NCBI RefSeq assembly: GCF_021431965.1
Contig: NZ_CP090370.1
Location: 1-64,000 of the forward strand
Length of the DNA stretch: 64,000 bases
Direction of reading: 5' to 3'
Source of the DNA: Erythrobacter sp. SDW2
GTDB taxonomy: Bacteria > Pseudomonadota > Alphaproteobacteria > Sphingomonadales > Sphingomonadaceae
The position numbers and the translations under genes are program-made. Positions within the stretch are counted from its first letter, which is position 1. Each line of letters starts with the position of its first letter. The notes under the pieces are model-generated. The model was not told the origin of the DNA. It was given only the letters and a program-made list of their open reading frames with translations, and made no database searches. Of this stretch, positions 34,248-42,255 are shown piece by piece.

Positions 34248-35384
34248 ATGCTCTGGATTGCCATCCGCATGCTGACCGGCGACCGCCAGAAGTTCTACGG
34301 GTTGGTGTTCGGGATCGCCTTTTCCACCCTGCTCATCACCCAGCAGCTGACGATCTTCGTCAACCTGATCGAGCGCGGGGCGAGCGGGACCTACAATGTC
34401 GGCGAGGCCGAGGTGTGGGTAATGGACCCGGTCAGCCGCACCACTGAAGTCGCCTATCCCATGCCCACCACCGCGCTCGACAAGGTCCGCGGCGTCCCCG
34501 GGGTCGACTGGGCCGTGCCGCATCTGCGCGCCGCCGCCTCGGTCCGGACCAAGGACGGCGACCTGGAGGGCGTGGCGATCATCGGGGTCGACGACGCCAC
34601 GCTGATCGGCCTGCCCAAGCGGATGAAGGAAGGCAGCATCGATGTGCTGTCACAGCCCGACAGCGTGATCATCGACGATGTCGGCACGATCAACATGTTC
34701 GGTGCCGATGTCGATCCCGTCGGCGAGCGGCTTGAGCTCAATGACCAGCGGGCGGTGATCCGCGGCATCGCCGATTCGATCCCCAGCTTCACCAGCCAGG
34801 TCACGCTCTATACCAAATACAGCCAGGCGCTGCGCTATGTCCCCGGCACGCGTAACCGGCTCAGCTTCGTGCTGGCCGGCGTCTCCGAGGGCCAGACCGC
34901 TGCCGAGGTTGCCGACCGGATCGAGCGCGAGACCGGGCTCAAGGCCGAAACCCGCGACGAATTCGCCCGCGCCGGGGTCGATTTCATCATCCAGAACACT
35001 GGCATCCCGACCAATTTCGGCATCACCGTGGTGCTTGGTTTCGTCGTCGGCGTGGCCATCGTCGGGCTGACCTTCAGCCTGTTCATCCGCGACAACATCA
35101 AGCAGTTCGGGGCGCTCAAAGCGATCGGCGTGACCAATGCCCGCATCCTGCGGATGGTGGCGACCCAGGCCGGACTGGTCGGCTTCATCGGCTATGGCCT
35201 GGGCGTGCTGGGCACGGTCGGCTTCATGTGGGCCTTCAGCGGCAATCCTTTCTTCAAGGGCTTTTATATCCCCTGGCAGATCCCGCTGATCAGCCTCGCC
35301 GCCGTGGTGGTGATCCTCGCCATCACGGGCACCCTCGCCCTGCGCAGCGTGTTCAAGACCGAACCCGCGTCGGTATTCAGATAA
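34248..35384 (+). CDS. ABC transporter permease (DevC/MacB-like FtsX fold)
   Basis: A 378-residue membrane protein: TM1 near 17-37, a large periplasmic domain (about 40-260), then three TM segments in the last 120 residues (GITVVLGFVVGVAIVGLTF, AGLVGFIGYGLGVLGTVGF, IPLISLAAVVVILAI). This is the type VII ABC (mechanotransmission) layout, without the fused ATPase of MacB, as in heterocyst DevC. First gene of the efflux operon; its stop shares a base with the ATPase start (TAATG). Confidence 0.9.
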   Translation: MLWIAIRMLTGDRQKFYGLVFGIAFSTLLITQQLTIFVNLIERGASGTYNVGEAEVWVMDPVSRTTEVAYPMPTTALDKVRGVPGVDWAVPHLRAAASVRTKDGDLEGVAIIGVDDATLIGLPKRMKEGSIDVLSQPDSVIIDDVGTINMFGADVDPVGERLELNDQRAVIRGIADSIPSFTSQVTLYTKYSQALRYVPGTRNRLSFVLAGVSEGQTAAEVADRIERETGLKAETRDEFARAGVDFIIQNTGIPTNFGITVVLGFVVGVAIVGLTFSLFIRDNIKQFGALKAIGVTNARILRMVATQAGLVGFIGYGLGVLGTVGFMWAFSGNPFFKGFYIPWQIPLISLAAVVVILAITGTLALRSVFKTEPASVFR

Positions 35385-36127
35385 TGGCGACCCTCATGGA
35401 CACCACTGCCATCGGCGGCTGCAATCCCGAAGCGGCGATCTGCACCCGCGGGGTGACGCGCGACTTCAAGGCGGGCCAACAGACCATCACCGTTCTGCAC
35501 GGGATCGATGCCGATATCCGCGCCGGCGAGATGACCTTCGTCGTCGGCGAGAGCGGATCGGGCAAGACCACGCTGATCTCGATCATGTGCGGGATCCTCT
35601 ATCCCACGCTGGGCGAGGTGAAGGTGTTCGGGACCGACATCTATTCGCTGACCGATACCGAGCTGGTCAAGTTCCGCCTGCAGAACATCGGCTTCATCTT
35701 CCAGCAGTACAACCTCATCCCCTCGATAGACGCCGCCTCCAATGCGGCCGTGCCGCTGATCGCGCAGGGCATGGACCGGCACGAAGCGCGCGAGAAGGCC
35801 CGCGTCATGCTCGAGCGGCTGAACATCGGCAACCAAGCCGACAAGCTGCCCAACCAGCTTTCAGGCGGCCAGCAGCAGCGCGTCGCCATCGCCCGCGCGC
35901 TGGTCCACGAACCGCGGCTGGTGGTCTGCGACGAGCCGACCGCCGCGCTCGATGCCAGTTCGGGCCGGCGGGTGATGGACCTGCTGCGCGAGGTGGCGGT
36001 CGCGCCGGACCGCGCTTGCATCATCGTGACCCACGACAACCGCATCTTCGACCTCGCCGACCGGATCATCCAGCTGGAAGACGGACGCATTACCCACGAC
36101 GGCACCGAAATGCCGAGCGGCCACTAG
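35384..36127 (+). CDS. ABC transporter ATP-binding protein (LolD/MacB/DevA-like)
   Basis: A 247-residue ATPase with Walker A GESGSGKTT (55-63), a Q-loop in FIFQQYNLIP, the signature LSGGQQQRVAIARAL, Walker B LVVCDEPTAALD and the H-switch VTHDNR. It pairs with the upstream permease; start and stop overlap (TAATG), indicating coupled translation. Energises transport through the periplasmic adaptor and outer-membrane channel encoded next. Confidence 0.94.
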   Translation: MATLMDTTAIGGCNPEAAICTRGVTRDFKAGQQTITVLHGIDADIRAGEMTFVVGESGSGKTTLISIMCGILYPTLGEVKVFGTDIYSLTDTELVKFRLQNIGFIFQQYNLIPSIDAASNAAVPLIAQGMDRHEAREKARVMLERLNIGNQADKLPNQLSGGQQQRVAIARALVHEPRLVVCDEPTAALDASSGRRVMDLLREVAVAPDRACIIVTHDNRIFDLADRIIQLEDGRITHDGTEMPSGH

Positions 36128-36139
36128 GAACCTCTCGAA

Positions 36140-37150
36140 ATGGCTTTCAACCTTCGCAATTTCAGCTTCTCGCGCATGGGCCTGCCGATCCTCGCAGTGA
36201 TCGGACTGGCCATCGCCGCCTTCTTCATCGCCGGTCGCCTGCCCGACCGTGAGCTTGACGAGCCCGAACGCGAGCCGCCTCGGGCGACCGGGGAGCTGGC
36301 CGATGCCAACCGTGTCGCCGGGGCGGGTGTGGTCGAGCCGTCGAGCGAGGTGGTGCAGATCGGCACGGCGCTGTCGGGGCTGGTGATGCAGCTCAATGTC
36401 CGTCCGGGGGACTATGTCGAGCAGGGCCAGCCGCTGTTCACGGTCGACACTCGCAGCCTGCGGGCGCAGCTGGCGCAGGCCAATGCTGCCATCGGCGAGG
36501 CCCGCGCCGCCATTGCCGAAGCGCAAAGCGCGCTGTCTACCGCCAGCCAGCAGCTCGCGCTTTATCGCAGCGTCGACGATCCCGCCGCCGTCAGCCGCGC
36601 CGAAGTGATCCGCGCGGAGGGCGAAGCCAATGCCGCCCGCACAAGGCTGGGGCTGGCCCGCGCCCGGCTCGAAGCCGCCCAGGCCAGCGCTTCGCTCGCC
36701 AGCACCGAGATCGGCCGGGCCACCGTACGCGCGCCGATGGCGGGGGAAATCCTGAGCGTGAATATCCGCCCCGGCGAGTATCTCTCGACCATGGGCGGCG
36801 GCAGTGCGGCCTTTATCGAGATGGGTCAGACCCGCCCGCTCAACATCCGCATCGATATCGACGAGGACCAGGCCCCGCGCCTTGCCATGGGCGAAGAAGC
36901 CATCGTTTCCCCGCGCGGAGCCGCCGACCGGCAGGTGCGGGCGAAATTCGTCCGCGCCGAACCGCTGGTGATCCCCAAGCGCTCGCTCACCAACAGCGCG
37001 CAGGAGCGGGTCGATGTCCGCGTGCTGCAGGTGATTTACGAACTGCCCGCGCCGAAGGAAGGCGAAGACCCGCTGTTCCGGGTCGGCCAGCAGGTCGATG
37101 CCTTCATTCCGGCGCGCAAAACAGGTGCCAAGCCGGCGGAAGCCAAGTGA
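36140..37150 (+). CDS. HlyD/MacA-type periplasmic adaptor
   Basis: A 336-residue membrane-fusion protein: an N-terminal TM anchor (about 14-31), then split lipoyl halves (PSSEVVQIGTALSGLVMQLNV and TVRAPMAGEILSV) around a long alanine-rich helical hairpin (about 105-195), and a beta-barrel. It links the inner-membrane ABC unit to the outer-membrane factor. Its stop overlaps the next start in GTGA. Confidence 0.92.
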   Translation: MAFNLRNFSFSRMGLPILAVIGLAIAAFFIAGRLPDRELDEPEREPPRATGELADANRVAGAGVVEPSSEVVQIGTALSGLVMQLNVRPGDYVEQGQPLFTVDTRSLRAQLAQANAAIGEARAAIAEAQSALSTASQQLALYRSVDDPAAVSRAEVIRAEGEANAARTRLGLARARLEAAQASASLASTEIGRATVRAPMAGEILSVNIRPGEYLSTMGGGSAAFIEMGQTRPLNIRIDIDEDQAPRLAMGEEAIVSPRGAADRQVRAKFVRAEPLVIPKRSLTNSAQERVDVRVLQVIYELPAPKEGEDPLFRVGQQVDAFIPARKTGAKPAEAK

Positions 37151-38592
37151 CCATGCGCTCGCTGCCCCTCTCCCTCTCCCTCCCCCTGGCCGCCGCGCTG
37201 GCGCTGGGCGCCTGTGTTGCCGGCCCGCCGCCGGTGATCGACACCGCCCCGCCGGTGCTTCCACTCGAATTCGCCTATGCGCCCGATGCGCCGACCGGTG
37301 CATCAGTGGCAAGCTTGCTGCCGACCGGAGACCCTGCCTATCAGGACCTCGCTGCCCTCGCCCTTGCCGATGCGCCAACCTTGGCGCAGGCCGCCGCCCG
37401 CATCGAGCAAGTTCGGTCGCAGGCCGCCGGGGCCGGAGCCAATCGCTTGCCCAGCCTGTCGGGCGATGCCTCCGTCACCGGCAGCCGCACCAGCCCCAGC
37501 CAGTTCGGGGCCAATCTGCCCGCCGGGATCGCGCTCGATACGGAAAGGGTGAGCTACGGCGCCAATCTGCGCGCCAGCTGGGACCCTGACCTGTTCGGGC
37601 GGCTGCGGGCACAGGAACGCGCTGCGCTGGCCCGGATCGACGCCGCCGATGCCGAGGCGGGGGGGGTGCGCAACGCGCTGCTGGCGGAGATCGCCGGGAC
37701 CGTGATCGACTGGCGCACGCTCGATGCGCGCCAGCAGGCGCTCGAGGCCGACCTTTCGGCCGCCGAAGAACTCGCCCGGCTGGCCGGATCGCGCGAGCGC
37801 GCCGGGATCGCTCCGGGCTTCGACCGGGTCCGCGCCGAAAGCGCGGCCGAGGCGAGCCGCAGCCGCATTGCCGCGCTGGCCAGCGAACGCGCCCGGCTGC
37901 TCGGGCGGTTGGTGACGCTGACCGGGCAAAGCGGGCAGAAGGTGCGCGAGGCGCTGCTCCAGCCCGCCCCGGCCCCGGCGCAGCCTGCGGCCCCTGCCTC
38001 GCTGCCGAGCCAATTGCTCGCCAACCGGCCCGATGTGCTCGCCGCCGAGGCGCAATTGCGCGCCTCCGACGCCGAGCTGGCCGCCAGCGCGGCGCGGCGT
38101 TTCCCGCAGCTGACATTGTCGGCAGCGCTCGGCCTGCTGGCGTTCGATCTGGGCGATCTGTTCGACGAGGACGCCGTGGTCGGCTCGGTTGGCGGCAGCC
38201 TGCTCGCCCCGCTGTTCGACTTCGGCCGGATCGAGGCCGAGATCGAGGCCTCGGCAGCGGGCAAGAAGCTCGCCTTTGCGGGCTACCGTAATGCCGTGTT
38301 TACGGCGCTGGGCGATGCCGAGGCCGGCTACGGCCTGGTCGCCGCCGCCGACAACCAGCTCGCCGCTGCCGAGCGCGAATTCGCCAGCGCCGAACGCGCG
38401 GCCAAGCTCGCCGACACCCGCTACCGCGCGGGCCTGTCCGACTTCCTCACTGTGCTCGAAGCGCGCCGCAGCGCCGATGCCAGCGGCGAGCGGGTGGCGA
38501 TCGCCCGCGGGCAGGCGGAACGGGCGCGCGTGGTGCTTTGGCAGGCGCTCGGCGGCGAGACTCAGCCCACCAGCCGGTCGATCAGCCAGTAA
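37147..38592 (+). CDS. NodT-family outer-membrane efflux lipoprotein
   Basis: A 481-residue TolC-like channel: a lipoprotein signal ending LGAC (Cys at about 25), then two repeats of long helices with the barrel strands; the second half begins at LLANRPDVLAAEAQLRASDAELAASAARRFPQLTLSA, the classic OMF signature. It completes a self-contained export system (permease, ATPase, adaptor, channel). Start GTG at 37147 (GTGA overlap) or ATG at 37153. The last 31 bases overlap the end of the convergent HupE-like gene. Confidence 0.93.
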   Translation: MTMRSLPLSLSLPLAAALALGACVAGPPPVIDTAPPVLPLEFAYAPDAPTGASVASLLPTGDPAYQDLAALALADAPTLAQAAARIEQVRSQAAGAGANRLPSLSGDASVTGSRTSPSQFGANLPAGIALDTERVSYGANLRASWDPDLFGRLRAQERAALARIDAADAEAGGVRNALLAEIAGTVIDWRTLDARQQALEADLSAAEELARLAGSRERAGIAPGFDRVRAESAAEASRSRIAALASERARLLGRLVTLTGQSGQKVREALLQPAPAPAQPAAPASLPSQLLANRPDVLAAEAQLRASDAELAASAARRFPQLTLSAALGLLAFDLGDLFDEDAVVGSVGGSLLAPLFDFGRIEAEIEASAAGKKLAFAGYRNAVFTALGDAEAGYGLVAAADNQLAAAEREFASAERAAKLADTRYRAGLSDFLTVLEARRSADASGERVAIARGQAERARVVLWQALGGETQPTSRSISQ

Positions 38593-39533
38593 CTGCCGGT
38601 CACGCCGATGGCATAGCTGGCGGTGCGGATCGTAGGAGCAAGCGCAGCCTCGCGCAGGCGCCTGACCCCTTCCAGCACCAGCAGCACCGCCAGCACCACC
38701 GCGAGCTGCCCCGCCTCGACCCCGAGGTTGAACGACACCAGCGCCGCCGGAACCTCGCCTTCGGGCAGGCCGATTGCGCGCAAGGCCCCGGCGAAGCCGA
38801 AGCCGTGGATCAGCCCGAACAGGAAAGCCACCACCCAGGGCCAGCGGCGGGTGAAGCTGGACTGATCGCCTCTCGCGGTCTCCATCGCCAGCAACACGAT
38901 GCTGAGCGCGATCACCGCTTCGACCGGCCTTCCCGGCAGTCCAAGAAGCCCCAGCGAGACCCCCGCCAGCGTCAGCGAATGCGCCACGGTAAAGGCCGTC
39001 ACCGCCTTGGCCACCGCCCAGCCGCGCCGCACCAGCAGCACCAGCGCGATCACGAACAGCAAATGGTCCCAGCCCTCGAGGATATGCGCGACCCCGAGCA
39101 CGAAGTAGCTTTGCCAGACCTGCCAGCTCGACGGCTTGGCAGCGATGGTGGCCAAGGGCTCGGTTGCCGTCAGCCGGAAGCTCTGCACCGGGCGGTACAG
39201 CGGCGCGACCCGCAGCATGACATCGCCGCCTCCCAGAATGGCTTCCAGTCCGACGCGCCCGCCGTCGACCGCGCCCGCGCATGTCACTTCCGCCGATCCG
39301 ATCAGCGCGCTCGGCAGGCTGCGTTTGACCGGTTCGCCCGCCAGCGCGCAGCCCGTGGGCAGGACCGGCACCACCAGCGCCGCCGGACCGGGCGCGGCGA
39401 GCGGCTGCTTCCAGTTCAGCGTCCAATCGCGCGCGGATTGCTGGGCGAATTCGATATAGCCGGGGCGCAGCTCGTCAGCCGCTGCGGGCGCAGCCATGGC
39501 CAGTGCCAGAATGGCAAACAACCGCCGGCTCAC
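38562..39533 (-). CDS. HupE/UreJ-family membrane protein
   Basis: A 323-residue protein with a signal peptide (to about AAA/DEL), a periplasmic domain of about 120 residues, and six or so TM helices with the HupE/UreJ His motifs GVAHILEGWDHLLF, FTVAHSLTL and FGLIHGFGFA. HupE proteins transport nickel or cobalt; this longer HupE/UreJ_2 branch has no proven substrate. It starts with GTG, overlapping the stop of the PPIase gene in GTGA. Confidence 0.85.
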   Translation of the reverse strand: MSRRLFAILALAMAAPAAADELRPGYIEFAQQSARDWTLNWKQPLAAPGPAALVVPVLPTGCALAGEPVKRSLPSALIGSAEVTCAGAVDGGRVGLEAILGGGDVMLRVAPLYRPVQSFRLTATEPLATIAAKPSSWQVWQSYFVLGVAHILEGWDHLLFVIALVLLVRRGWAVAKAVTAFTVAHSLTLAGVSLGLLGLPGRPVEAVIALSIVLLAMETARGDQSSFTRRWPWVVAFLFGLIHGFGFAGALRAIGLPEGEVPAALVSFNLGVEAGQLAVVLAVLLVLEGVRRLREAALAPTIRTASYAIGVTGSYWLIDRLVG

Positions 39534-40345
39534 TTCTCGATCTTCACCGTATAGGCTTCCCGCAGCAGCCGGTATGCCGCCTCCTCCCGCTCGCGCGCGG
39601 TGGCGAGCCGCCAGTCCTCGATCACCCGCTGACGGCTGGCGGCGAGTTCGGGCACCCGTCCCGGCTCCATCTTGCGCAGGCGAACGAAATGCCAGCCGAC
39701 CCCGGACGCGATCGGCCCCTGCCAGCGCCCATCCGGCGTCATGCTGACCAGCTTACTGGCAAAATCCGCCCCGAATTGCGCCGCAACCTGCGCCTTCTCG
39801 CGCGCCTCGACGCTGTCAGGGAGCGAGGCCGGCTCACCCGCGCCTTGCCAGTCTCGCCGCAGTCCGGGCAGCACTGCCCCCGCATCGGGCCGCGCCGCGA
39901 AATAGACCTGGTCGAAGCTCAGCCGCAGATCGCTGGCATAGCGCGCCGCATTGGTGCGGTACCATTGCTCCAGCTCGGCCTCGCTCGGCTCCGCCGCTTC
40001 GGCGGAGGAGGTCGCGAGAAAATCCATCTTCTTCGCCAGCCGCCGCCGCACCACCGGATCCCCCGCATCGAAGCCGAGCCGCAGCGCCTCGCGATACAGC
40101 ACCTCTTCGCGCACCCAGCGTTCGGTCAGCGCGGCCAGCTCGGCATCGGTCGGCGGCCGCTGCATGCTCCGCTCGTAATCGAGCGCAATCTGCGCCTGCA
40201 CTTCGCGGGTCACGTCGATCACGCGGCTGGCGGGATCGGCTTCCTCCCCGCGCCAGGCGAAGAAGGCGAAGATCAGCGCCCCGCCGATCAGGAAATGCAC
40301 GAGCGGCTCGCGCAGGACGGTGCGCAACCTGTCAGCAAGGACCAT
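39530..40345 (-). CDS. Membrane-anchored parvulin-like peptidyl-prolyl isomerase
   Basis: A 271-residue protein: one N-terminal TM (PLVHFLIGGALIFAFFAW, about 15-33), an alpha-helical SurA/PpiD-like region (50-130), then a parvulin-type segment (FDQVYF, ..., SGVGWHFVRLRKMEPG). A periplasmic folding factor is likely. It starts at ATG 40343-40345, sharing a base with the stop of the DUF3604 gene (TGATG), and its own stop overlaps the HupE-like gene, so all three are translationally coupled. Confidence 0.85.
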   Translation of the reverse strand: MVLADRLRTVLREPLVHFLIGGALIFAFFAWRGEEADPASRVIDVTREVQAQIALDYERSMQRPPTDAELAALTERWVREEVLYREALRLGFDAGDPVVRRRLAKKMDFLATSSAEAAEPSEAELEQWYRTNAARYASDLRLSFDQVYFAARPDAGAVLPGLRRDWQGAGEPASLPDSVEAREKAQVAAQFGADFASKLVSMTPDGRWQGPIASGVGWHFVRLRKMEPGRVPELAASRQRVIEDWRLATAREREEAAYRLLREAYTVKIEK

Positions 40346-42255
40346 CAATTCGCCTTGGGCAACAGCCAGATCGGCGAGGTATAGGCCCGCTCCTGCTCGG
40401 TCTTGACGACCTCCGGCCCCAGCTTGACCCCGAAGCGCAGCGCATCGAACAGCACCCAGCGCGGGGTCGGGATCTCCAGCACGCGGACATAGTAGAACGC
40501 CCGCTGCCCCGGCTGGTAGTCGGGATCGGTCCACAGCGTGCGCAATTGCGCCGCGCCGATGGTGTTGGTGTAGCTCGCTTTGGCTTCATCGACGGTATTG
40601 CCGACCGCCGGCACCTTGCCCCCCGTCAGCGGCCGCTTGGCCGCATCCGACCACACCACGTCGAAGACTTTCTCCTGTGTGTTCCCCGCCGCATCGACCC
40701 AGCCCTTGACCACTTGCACCCGGTCGAGATTGGCCCCCTCGGGATCCTTCAGCGCCTCGATCATGAAGCGCGGCGCAGTGCCAGAGTCGTTGAGCACCCC
40801 GCCCATCGGCACACCCCCGGCATAGCCGGTCTTGACCCAGTCCTTGCCGAAGCTGCTGTCGTCGAAGCCAAATCCGCCGAACACCCGCACGCTCATCCGC
40901 GTGCCGGTGGTGGCATAGACCTCGCGGCGCTTGAACGCGTCGAAGATTTCCGCCCGTGTGTTGGCCCGCGCCCAGGCGGCGGCATAGCCGCTGGCGAGAT
41001 AGTTCCAGCCGAACCTCCCCTCGCGCGTGCCGAGATTCTGCGGCTCGATCGACCGGCCCTTCTGCGGTTCATTGCCGGTGTGCTTGCCGAAGAAATTGTC
41101 CTCGTCCGCCGTCGCCAGCCCGGTGTGCGAATCGGTCGAGCCGATCAGGCCGAAACGGTAGGGATTGACCCCCAGCCGCTGCTCGACCGAGAGCCCGCGC
41201 TTGAGCGCTTCGCGGACATAGCTGCCGGCATACATGTCGGGCGTGCTCGCCGCCGTCAGCGGCAGATTGCCGAGATCCCAGCCCCAGTCGCCATAGCCGG
41301 CGAATTCGTCATTGGGCGAAAGGAACGAATGCGTCTCGCTGTCGCCCTTGATCTGGGTGATCTCGACCACCGGTTCCCACCGCGCCCGCCTGGTCGCATA
41401 GGCTTCCGACATCGGCTGCCCGTCCGGGCCGGTCAGCTCGAACATCAGCCCGTTGGAAAGGTTCGAATTGTGCGGAATGGCCAGCGCCTGCCCGCCGGTG
41501 CCTTTCTCGTAAGCCTCGAGATAATCCCACAGCGCATCGACCTCGGTGCCGATCCCGGCGAAGGGCAGGGTGTCGCCGATGGTCGGCGCGCCGTCGCGGA
41601 ACATCACCACGCGGTGGAGATTGTTGCCGTCGGGCATGAGCGTCCATTCGAACCCGGCAAAGGCGGTGAAGGTGCCCGGCTGGTTGTAGAGATCGACCAG
41701 CCGCAGGTTCTCCTGCCAGATCTCCGTCGTCCCTTCACGCTGGGTCTCGGGATCGCGCAGTGCCTCGGGCAGCGTGTTGTCGGCGGCTGCGGTGATCAGC
41801 TCGGCTATGGCGCGCTGCGAGGATTGCCCGCCTTCACGCAGCATCGCCTGCCAGCGCCGCAGCGTCGGATCGCGCACCAGCGCACGCGGGGCGTTCATCA
41901 GCCGCTTGGTCGCGCCGAGCCCGTCCGAATGGTCGGCAATGACCAGAAAATCGAGCGGCCGGGCGAGCTGGGCATCGAGCCCGGTGGTCGCTTTGACCTT
42001 TTCGCCCTTGGCAAAGCGCAGCGCTTCCTCCGGCCCGATGCGAACCCCGAAGCCGAAGGCGTCGATCGAATTGTCGGTGTGGAGATGGGTGTCGCCCCAA
42101 TAGACCCGGTCAGGATACTCGGCCAGTTCGACCGTGTCCTCGCCGTTGCCGGCCTGCTCGGCGCTGGCCCGCGGCGTGAACACGCCGACATACCATGCTG
42201 CGCCCCCTGCAAGCGCCACAGCCGCGACCCCGGCGGCGATTGTCCTCTTGCGCAT
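40345..42255 (-). CDS. DUF3604 protein (PHP-like secreted hydrolase)
   Basis: A 636-residue precursor with an N-terminal hydrophobic export segment (AAGVAAVALAGGAAWYVGVF). Metal-binding motifs of the PHP type occur: YWGDTHLHTDNSIDA, FLVIADHSDGLG, IPHNSNLSNG and GSTDSHTG. DUF3604 proteins are large and conserved but have no assigned reaction; a periplasmic metal-dependent hydrolase is the likely class. The ATG at 42253-42255 has GGGAGAGG upstream. It heads the coupled DUF3604-PPIase-HupE unit. Confidence 0.88.
   Translation of the reverse strand: MRKRTIAAGVAAVALAGGAAWYVGVFTPRASAEQAGNGEDTVELAEYPDRVYWGDTHLHTDNSIDAFGFGVRIGPEEALRFAKGEKVKATTGLDAQLARPLDFLVIADHSDGLGATKRLMNAPRALVRDPTLRRWQAMLREGGQSSQRAIAELITAAADNTLPEALRDPETQREGTTEIWQENLRLVDLYNQPGTFTAFAGFEWTLMPDGNNLHRVVMFRDGAPTIGDTLPFAGIGTEVDALWDYLEAYEKGTGGQALAIPHNSNLSNGLMFELTGPDGQPMSEAYATRRARWEPVVEITQIKGDSETHSFLSPNDEFAGYGDWGWDLGNLPLTAASTPDMYAGSYVREALKRGLSVEQRLGVNPYRFGLIGSTDSHTGLATADEDNFFGKHTGNEPQKGRSIEPQNLGTREGRFGWNYLASGYAAAWARANTRAEIFDAFKRREVYATTGTRMSVRVFGGFGFDDSSFGKDWVKTGYAGGVPMGGVLNDSGTAPRFMIEALKDPEGANLDRVQVVKGWVDAAGNTQEKVFDVVWSDAAKRPLTGGKVPAVGNTVDEAKASYTNTIGAAQLRTLWTDPDYQPGQRAFYYVRVLEIPTPRWVLFDALRFGVKLGPEVVKTEQERAYTSPIWLLPKAN

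Follow-up and report, generated by a model that had tools for sequence, protein, structure and literature searches.

Why should the gene for an exported DUF3604 protein be joined, stop codon to start codon, to genes for a peptidyl-prolyl isomerase (PPIase) and a HupE-type membrane protein? The question is raised by a locus of Erythrobacter sp. SDW2, located in the first 64,000 nucleotides of contig NZ_CP090370.1 (the window), where an original prediction had described three genes in the order DUF3604, PPIase and HupE, overlapping by TGATG and GTGA and sharing one task. The coordinates and overlaps proved exact, and the genome holds one DUF3604, one PPIase of the trio type and one HupE_UreJ_2 match. 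The safest claim from the comparisons below is that DUF3604 and the PPIase-HupE pair are functionally dependent. As a tentative explanation, we favor an accessory pair that provides metal handling and folding help for exported DUF3604 enzymes with a PHP fold.

Co-Occurrence of the Three Genes in Genomes

A PPIase was counted as trio-type when its match had an E-value below 1e-39 (the weakest had 5e-40); the next matches, generic PPIases, started from 3e-22. In the class sample of 190 genomes, the trio-type PPIase was found in 18 of the 19 genomes (G numbers below) with a full-length or long DUF3604 and in one of the 171 others (Fisher 5e-23, a value that ignores relatedness). All 18 have the PPIase beside HupE. 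The single positive among the 171, G187, carries a fragmentary pair (locus L247) and a weak PF12228 match; it is one of 14 genomes with such matches (best E-values from 8.5e-9 to 4e-4) that were counted as being without DUF3604. G124, in which DUF3604 is a fragment cut by the contig end and the PPIase gave no match, was set aside; its inclusion changes the count to 18/20. The window's family, represented by 59 sampled genomes, gave the same picture: the PPIase was present in 17/17 genomes with DUF3604 and in 3/42 without, the latter three having weaker PPIase matches. Here DUF3604 was counted at E-values up to 1e-50, and the search covered DUF3604 and PPIase but not HupE. The two genes are adjacent in 16 of the 17 genomes and lie on separate contigs in G273.

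The association extends to genomes in which the genes are apart. When DUF3604 was the only query, the 80 best of 587 confirmed matches gave named loci that lean towards the window's relatives, and 35 of these 80 contain DUF3604 only. The genomes behind these loci encode a trio-type PPIase in 30 of 35 cases, with HupE beside it in 29 of those 30; some of the PPIase matches are partial (e.g., G196 and G223), and G202 was counted as a miss on its weak matches (E-values of 4e-28 and 4e-26). Conversely, ten PPIase-HupE pairs (L232-L240 and L243) have no DUF3604 within the 14.6-18 kb read, while DUF3604 is found elsewhere in their genomes. In G190, G191 and G195, an unlinked pair accompanies a single DUF3604, and on the G201 chromosome the pair lies ~690 kb from a full-length DUF3604 and ~187 kb from a partial match. 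Therefore, the pair probably helps DUF3604 in trans as well. The original prediction had regarded frequent separation of the genes as evidence against it. They are indeed frequently separate, but mostly still within the same genome, and it is this co-occurrence that upholds the shared task.

Gene Organization and Conservation

The features of the locus, all on the minus strand, are as follows.

40345..42255, minus: DUF3604 gene, 636 amino acids (PF12228, E-value 5e-242); by fold comparison of the model, the protein consists of an export signal, a PHP metallohydrolase domain (residues ~45-450) and a C-terminal beta-sandwich (~453-636)
42079..42087, minus: PHP-type motif H57-L-H59, metal ligands as assigned from the motif; neither His varies in alignments of 36 and of 40 sequences
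41125..41133, minus: PHP-type motif D375-S-H377, metal ligands as assigned from the motif; neither Asp nor His varies in alignments of 36 and of 40 sequences
40343..40347, minus: TGATG stop-start overlap of DUF3604 and PPIase (sequence)
39530..40345, minus: membrane-anchored parvulin-type PPIase, 271 amino acids (PF13145 Rotamase_2, E-value 8e-12)
39530..39533, minus: GTGA overlap of PPIase and HupE (sequence)
38562..39533, minus: HupE/UreJ_2 gene, 323 amino acids (PF13795 HupE_UreJ_2, E-value 4e-47)
39138..39476, minus: periplasmic Ang-like beta-sandwich of the HupE protein, residues 20-132 (fold comparison and column counts)
39474-39476, minus: Asp20, predicted mature residue 1 of the HupE protein (cleavage site by eye)
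38568..39128, minus: HupE membrane domain, residues 136-322, with H150, D156, H157, H185, H243, N269 and E273 (residue conservation)

Loci of the class sample (L numbers) were fetched around PF12228 and PF13795 matches, which occur in 34 and 50 of the 190 genomes, respectively; some weak or short HupE matches were left unfetched. Full-length PF12228 copies number 45 (two as split matches) in 18 genomes. A PPIase adjoins HupE in 26 places, and a DUF3604-family gene is alongside in 23: 18 pairs stand beside a full-length DUF3604 (15 on the same strand, 3 convergent), 5 beside a divergent DUF3604 of 741-774 amino acids, and 3 have none. Seen from the enzyme, 21 of the 45 full-length copies are beside a pair and 24 are not. 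The divergent long type comes with its own PPIase and a HupE of 400-442 amino acids (L086, L102, L103, L104 and L105).

The 80 named loci, 33 of which extend for less than 2.5 kb to one side of their DUF3604 genes, comprise 41 with all three genes, 4 with DUF3604 and PPIase and the 35 with DUF3604 only; L191 and L205 were counted as trios through the Ang-like part of the third gene only. The trios come from Pseudomonadota, Myxococcota, Gemmatimonadota, Campylobacterota, Bacteroidota, Krumholzibacteriota and Verrucomicrobiota. The arrangement thus exceeds chance. The two overlaps differ in depth. The 4-bp overlap at the PPIase-HupE junction recurs in 57/72 cases, while overlapping starts at the DUF3604-PPIase junction are seen in 16/66, ten of these 16 coming from the window or related sphingomonads. 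The TGATG-type overlap is therefore largely specific to one lineage, and only the PPIase-HupE overlap is deeply conserved.

A fixed ratio of the three products, which the overlaps had suggested, is not supported. A genome can carry several DUF3604 genes (at most 18 matches in one), tandem DUF3604 genes occur in L067, L080, L087, L141 and others, and the pair may be unlinked from DUF3604. The order also varies, being PPIase-HupE-DUF3604 in L200, L202, L220 and L227 and convergent in L069, L073 and L075. Together with the 21 of 45 copies adjacent to a pair, the tandem copies and the varied orders rule out a strict fixed-ratio trio. In a FastTree tree of 157 DUF3604 proteins, copies with and without the pair interleave, and linkage to the pair changes 36 times without contig-edge rows; including these rows gives 39 changes, compared with a mean of 51 after shuffling. 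The linkage label is clustered on the tree, yet gained and lost often.

Among 72,556 plasmid records, DUF3604 was found in 78 and the PPIase likewise in 78, as counts from two separate lists. On a conjugative plasmid of S. meliloti, the genes DUF3604-DUF3604-PPIase-HupE, with one small gene, are flanked by transfer genes; a Salipiger plasmid carries DUF3604 without its partners. Broken members were also seen, with a split PPIase in L117 and a split HupE in L170. Two candidate fusions were rejected: in L248, a further broken member, a deletion seems to have brought the start of the PPIase into line with the membrane part of HupE, and the fused HupE of L145 (a 621-amino-acid open reading frame) reflects an upstream start call.

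Properties of the Three Proteins

As judged by eye from the hydrophobic N-termini, signal-like segments open the DUF3604 and HupE proteins and a membrane anchor opens the PPIase. The DUF3604 protein scores 804.9 bits against PF12228 (gathering threshold 20.4) over positions 3-590 of 591. Its AlphaFold2 (AF2) model (pLDDT 90) has PHP-like top matches in VIA-align (3e38 with a Z-score of 16.8, 2anu with 16.6 and 7rty with 13.1, unrelated rows scoring ~7), with sandwich matches beginning at about residue 453. Plain Foldseek was weak, placing 3o0f at rank 25 (E-value 0.029) among mostly unrelated sandwiches, and when solved structures were searched by sequence, neither DUF3604 nor HupE had a match below an E-value of 0.1. 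Nine residues do not vary among 36 sequences: H57, H59, D108, H109, E203, H214, H262, D375 and H377. All but H214 make up the set HxH, DH, E, H, DxH, which we take to be the PHP ligand pattern and which was assigned by motif, not mapped on a solved structure. The PHP-like secreted enzyme of the original prediction is borne out by this fold and ligand-type set, and DUF3604 is probably an exported, metal-dependent hydrolase. Several relatives have a lipobox-like Cys near the N-terminus (by eye). The CehA/McbA model NF038032 matches 20 of 40 DUF3604 proteins weakly (best E-value 2e-5).

The PPIase scores 46.4 bits against the Rotamase domain PF13145 (threshold 27), and profile matches include 3rfw (E-value 8e-17), SurA (3e-13), HP0175 and PrsA. 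At the two parvulin His positions, which we presume to be catalytic, the window protein has Gln146 and His219, and hence lacks the His pair. The tethered foldase that had been proposed is an anchored SurA/PrsA-like PPIase for which the word foldase is uncertain: the sequences make a holding chaperone as likely as an isomerase.

The HupE protein scores 160.1 bits against PF13795 (gathering threshold 24.5) and, lower, 38.5 bits against HupE_UreJ (PF04955, threshold 23). Its AF2 model (pLDDT 90) shows an Ig-like beta-sandwich ahead of the helical membrane part. The closest folds to this Ang-like domain are ZrgA (8f1b, Z-score 10.8), PA4063 (7bgo, 9.8) and RbAng-1a (9gce, 7.7). The membrane part contains HX5DH as H150-x5-D156-H157, each residue kept in 69-70 of 71 PPIase-paired proteins. 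We assume HX5DH and FHGxAHGxE to be the two motifs of HupE nickel permeases; the second is absent from its assumed site, where the window reads FGLIHGFGFAG. With the family match and the metal-site-like domain of the model, the HupE protein may well be the predicted metal permease. The membrane part of the model (residues 133-323) also matches chain A of the chloroplast TOC-TIC structures 7vcf and 7xzi (Z-scores of 9.9 and 9.2), which for helical bundles may mean little.

The mature N-terminus of the HupE proteins was placed by visual inspection of A-x-A patterns rather than with a predictor. Predicted residue 1 is His in 41 and Asp in 30 of the 71 paired proteins, with 4 changes on a quick tree in which L070 and the Asp row L174 form long branches; after alignment, hand corrections were made to the labels of L168, L172 and L143. 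A further 16 readable proteins have 10 His and 6 Asp, giving 51 His, 36 Asp and nothing else among 87; L185 and L145, outside the 71 rows, read Asp and His. Of 32 HupE proteins without an adjacent PPIase (L107-L116, L118-L123 and L125-L140), 30 have His at the likely N-terminus and two are unreadable (by eye). Cys62 and Cys85 are kept in 61/71 and 62/71 paired rows versus 0/32 and 2/32 unpaired ones.

The third gene of L191 and of L205 has no Pfam match; its product retains the sandwich, which starts with Asp, and continues into a different C-terminal domain. The Ang-like domain, PPIase and DUF3604 are thus kept without a recognizable permease. The same C-terminal domain is carried by L242, L245 and L185, the last with a weak, degenerate HupE match in which D156, H185, N269 and E273 are not recognizable by eye. 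HupE proteins without an adjacent PPIase often lie beside one gene family (nine loci: L109, L111, L112, L115, L116, L122, L125, L126 and L131), and short HupE_UreJ_2 proteins without the sandwich (L137-L140) beside a common gene of ~201-212 amino acids. In the available text of a nickel study of Sphingobium ba1, a HupE/UreJ-like protein belongs to an efflux cluster (PMC5557971).

Neighborhood of the Trio

Genes recurring near DUF3604 encode sulfatases (13 loci), short-chain dehydrogenases/reductases (15 loci), coenzyme A enzymes, a P450 cluster, TonB receptors and DUF2092 proteins. From these neighbors, whose clusters were annotated via one representative each, no single pathway emerges, and around DUF3604-only loci the neighborhoods are varied. 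An alignment of the region upstream in the window and nine relatives, inspected by eye, shows no shared operator, only a TTGAC-like string. DUF2092 occurs in three Bacteroidota loci together with DUF6515 (Pfam was run on L195 only) and, by annotation, on two rhizobial plasmids, the five loci being L195, L180, L209, L147 and L231. L195 and L146 additionally contain genes for a sulfatase and a HAD hydrolase, and this company is perhaps a larger periplasmic system. In the window, an ABC ATPase (by eye), an HlyD-like gene and an OEP gene at 35228-38592 on the plus strand converge on the trio, the end of the OEP gene (38592) overlapping that of HupE (38562) by 31 bp. OEP relatives adjoin the trio in 11 loci, the window included.

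Possible Function of the Trio

We favor the explanation of metal handling and folding help by the PPIase-HupE pair, while giving it somewhat less than an even chance. The anchored PPIase would hold or fold the exported DUF3604 enzyme on the periplasmic side of the inner membrane. There the Ang-like domain of HupE would capture a metal ion, which it would hand over either to the enzyme or to the permease for passage. The enzyme would thereby be kept metal-loaded, and one pair could serve several DUF3604 enzymes per cell, also when these are encoded elsewhere. The folds of the predicted models, the motifs, the gene coupling and the co-occurrence are direct observations. A metal role is proposed because DUF3604 combines a PHP fold with an invariant ligand-type set and because the Ang-like domain resembles ZrgA, PA4063 and the Cu/Ni-binding Ang-1. 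The restriction of predicted mature residue 1 to His or Asp, the permease-less loci L191 and L205, the degenerate HupE of L185 and the gene set on the S. meliloti plasmid also speak for the explanation, besides the co-occurrence and the unlinked pairs. We infer the metal loading of DUF3604, the physical interaction of the proteins, the transfer of metal and its direction, and likewise the metal and the substrate.

Several observations weigh against this explanation. G052, which is 92% complete, has DUF3604 without a trio-type PPIase, as do 5 of the 35 DUF3604-only genomes (several of them metagenome bins of unstated completeness). When every PF12228 match is counted, weak ones included, the PPIase is in 19/34 versus 0/156 genomes. 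In G203, a trio-type PPIase (L250) lacks HupE within 12.9 kb, and L085 shows DUF3604-PPIase without HupE in the stretch read. Isomerase activity is doubtful, since the first parvulin His is Gln in 51/77 sequences and His in 19/77, the second being His in 73/77. In the HupE protein, the His1 of Ang-1 is replaced by Asp20, and H150, D156, H157, H185, H243, N269 and E273 are each kept in 67-70 of the 71 paired rows, which argues that transport matters in most lineages. Finally, the published Ang-HupE model is one of uptake into the cell and HupE-type proteins are described there as permeases for uptake (available text of PMC12537917); transport in that direction would take metal from the periplasm, where the enzyme is located.

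The explanation that ranks next, a possible one of lower probability, is an uptake unit. DUF3604 would hydrolyze an extracytoplasmic substrate, e.g., a chelate, ester or phosphate, and Ang-HupE would import the freed metal or product, the PPIase folding only the membrane or Ang part. The permease character of HupE-type proteins, with Ang-1 as a capture domain in the same source, and the conserved membrane residues speak for such an uptake unit, as do two kinds of neighbor at most four genes away from a trio gene: among 134 DUF3604 loci, TonB-receptor genes have this position in 10 (9 separate places, because L064 overlaps L065) and sulfatase genes in 13. Against it stand L191 and L205, which combine the Ang-like domain, PPIase and DUF3604 with no recognizable permease domain, and the varied surroundings of DUF3604-only loci. 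The same permease-less forms would show delivery, not uptake, to be the core function if a more specific version of metal supply were true, in which the membrane-tethered Ang-like domain acts in trans to insert metal into DUF3604 during folding by the PPIase and His1 or Asp1 sets the metal; we consider this version unlikely.

Also unlikely is that the PPIase serves the HupE/Ang protein with its conserved Cys pair rather than DUF3604, which would be linked to the metal protein only by a common metal regime or regulator. The tightest link, the PPIase-HupE overlap, and the near restriction of the two Cys to paired proteins agree with this, but the DUF3604-PPIase arrangement of L085 and the strong genome-level link to DUF3604 do not. 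That the genes are chance or hitch-hiking neighbors without a shared task is very improbable in spite of the full-length DUF3604 copies without an adjacent pair: trios occur in seven named phyla and in more than one gene order, and the co-occurrence at genome level, unlinked genes included, led us to reject it.

If DUF3604 enzymes depend on a helper pair, they may need PPIase-HupE for activity, a prediction that makes the function of the family testable. The link is a first handle on the maturation of this little-studied exported family, and nature's own variants, with His or Asp at residue 1 or without a permease, could be used to ask how exported metalloenzymes acquire metal. Literature searches on HupE and related terms among open-licence PMC papers found none on the trio. 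A search of the same kind gave nothing under PF12228 and almost nothing on DUF3604, which is named in the accessible part of a Chlamydia transposon study.

Comparison with Known Systems

The DUF3604 domain has a fold like those of the PHP-like 3e38 and 2anu. For the CehA/McbA family, the window protein scores 13.5 bits against NF038032, below the cut-off of 80. DUF3604 differs from both by its additional C-terminal sandwich and its export signal. The PPIase shares the parvulin domain of SurA, PrsA and 3rfw-type chaperones; unlike these, it is a single anchored domain whose first His is mostly Gln and which is tied to one gene pair.

For the HupE protein, the closest folds of the N-terminal domain are the zinc-binding proteins ZrgA of Vibrio (available text of PMC9820375) and PA4063 (by structure title), whose matched chains lack the HupE domain of the window protein. 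The overall architecture is like that of RbAng-1a (PDB 9GCE), which likewise has a signal peptide, an N-terminal beta-sandwich and a HupE/UreJ_2 membrane domain, its residues 1-156 aligning to residues 19-132 of the window model (Z-score 7.7). As far as the text of PMC12537917 is available, RbAng-1a binds Cu and Ni via His1, has ZrgA as its nearest fold and is proposed to act in capture and uptake; His1 is exposed by signal peptide cleavage and 100% conserved in Ang-1, and the main text makes no mention of DUF3604, isomerase or PPIase. With Asp in place of His1, as in 36 of the 87 readable proteins, the window domain resembles Ang-1 but is not filed as one. Further differences from Ang-1 are the shorter domain, the conserved Cys pair and the coupling to PPIase and DUF3604.

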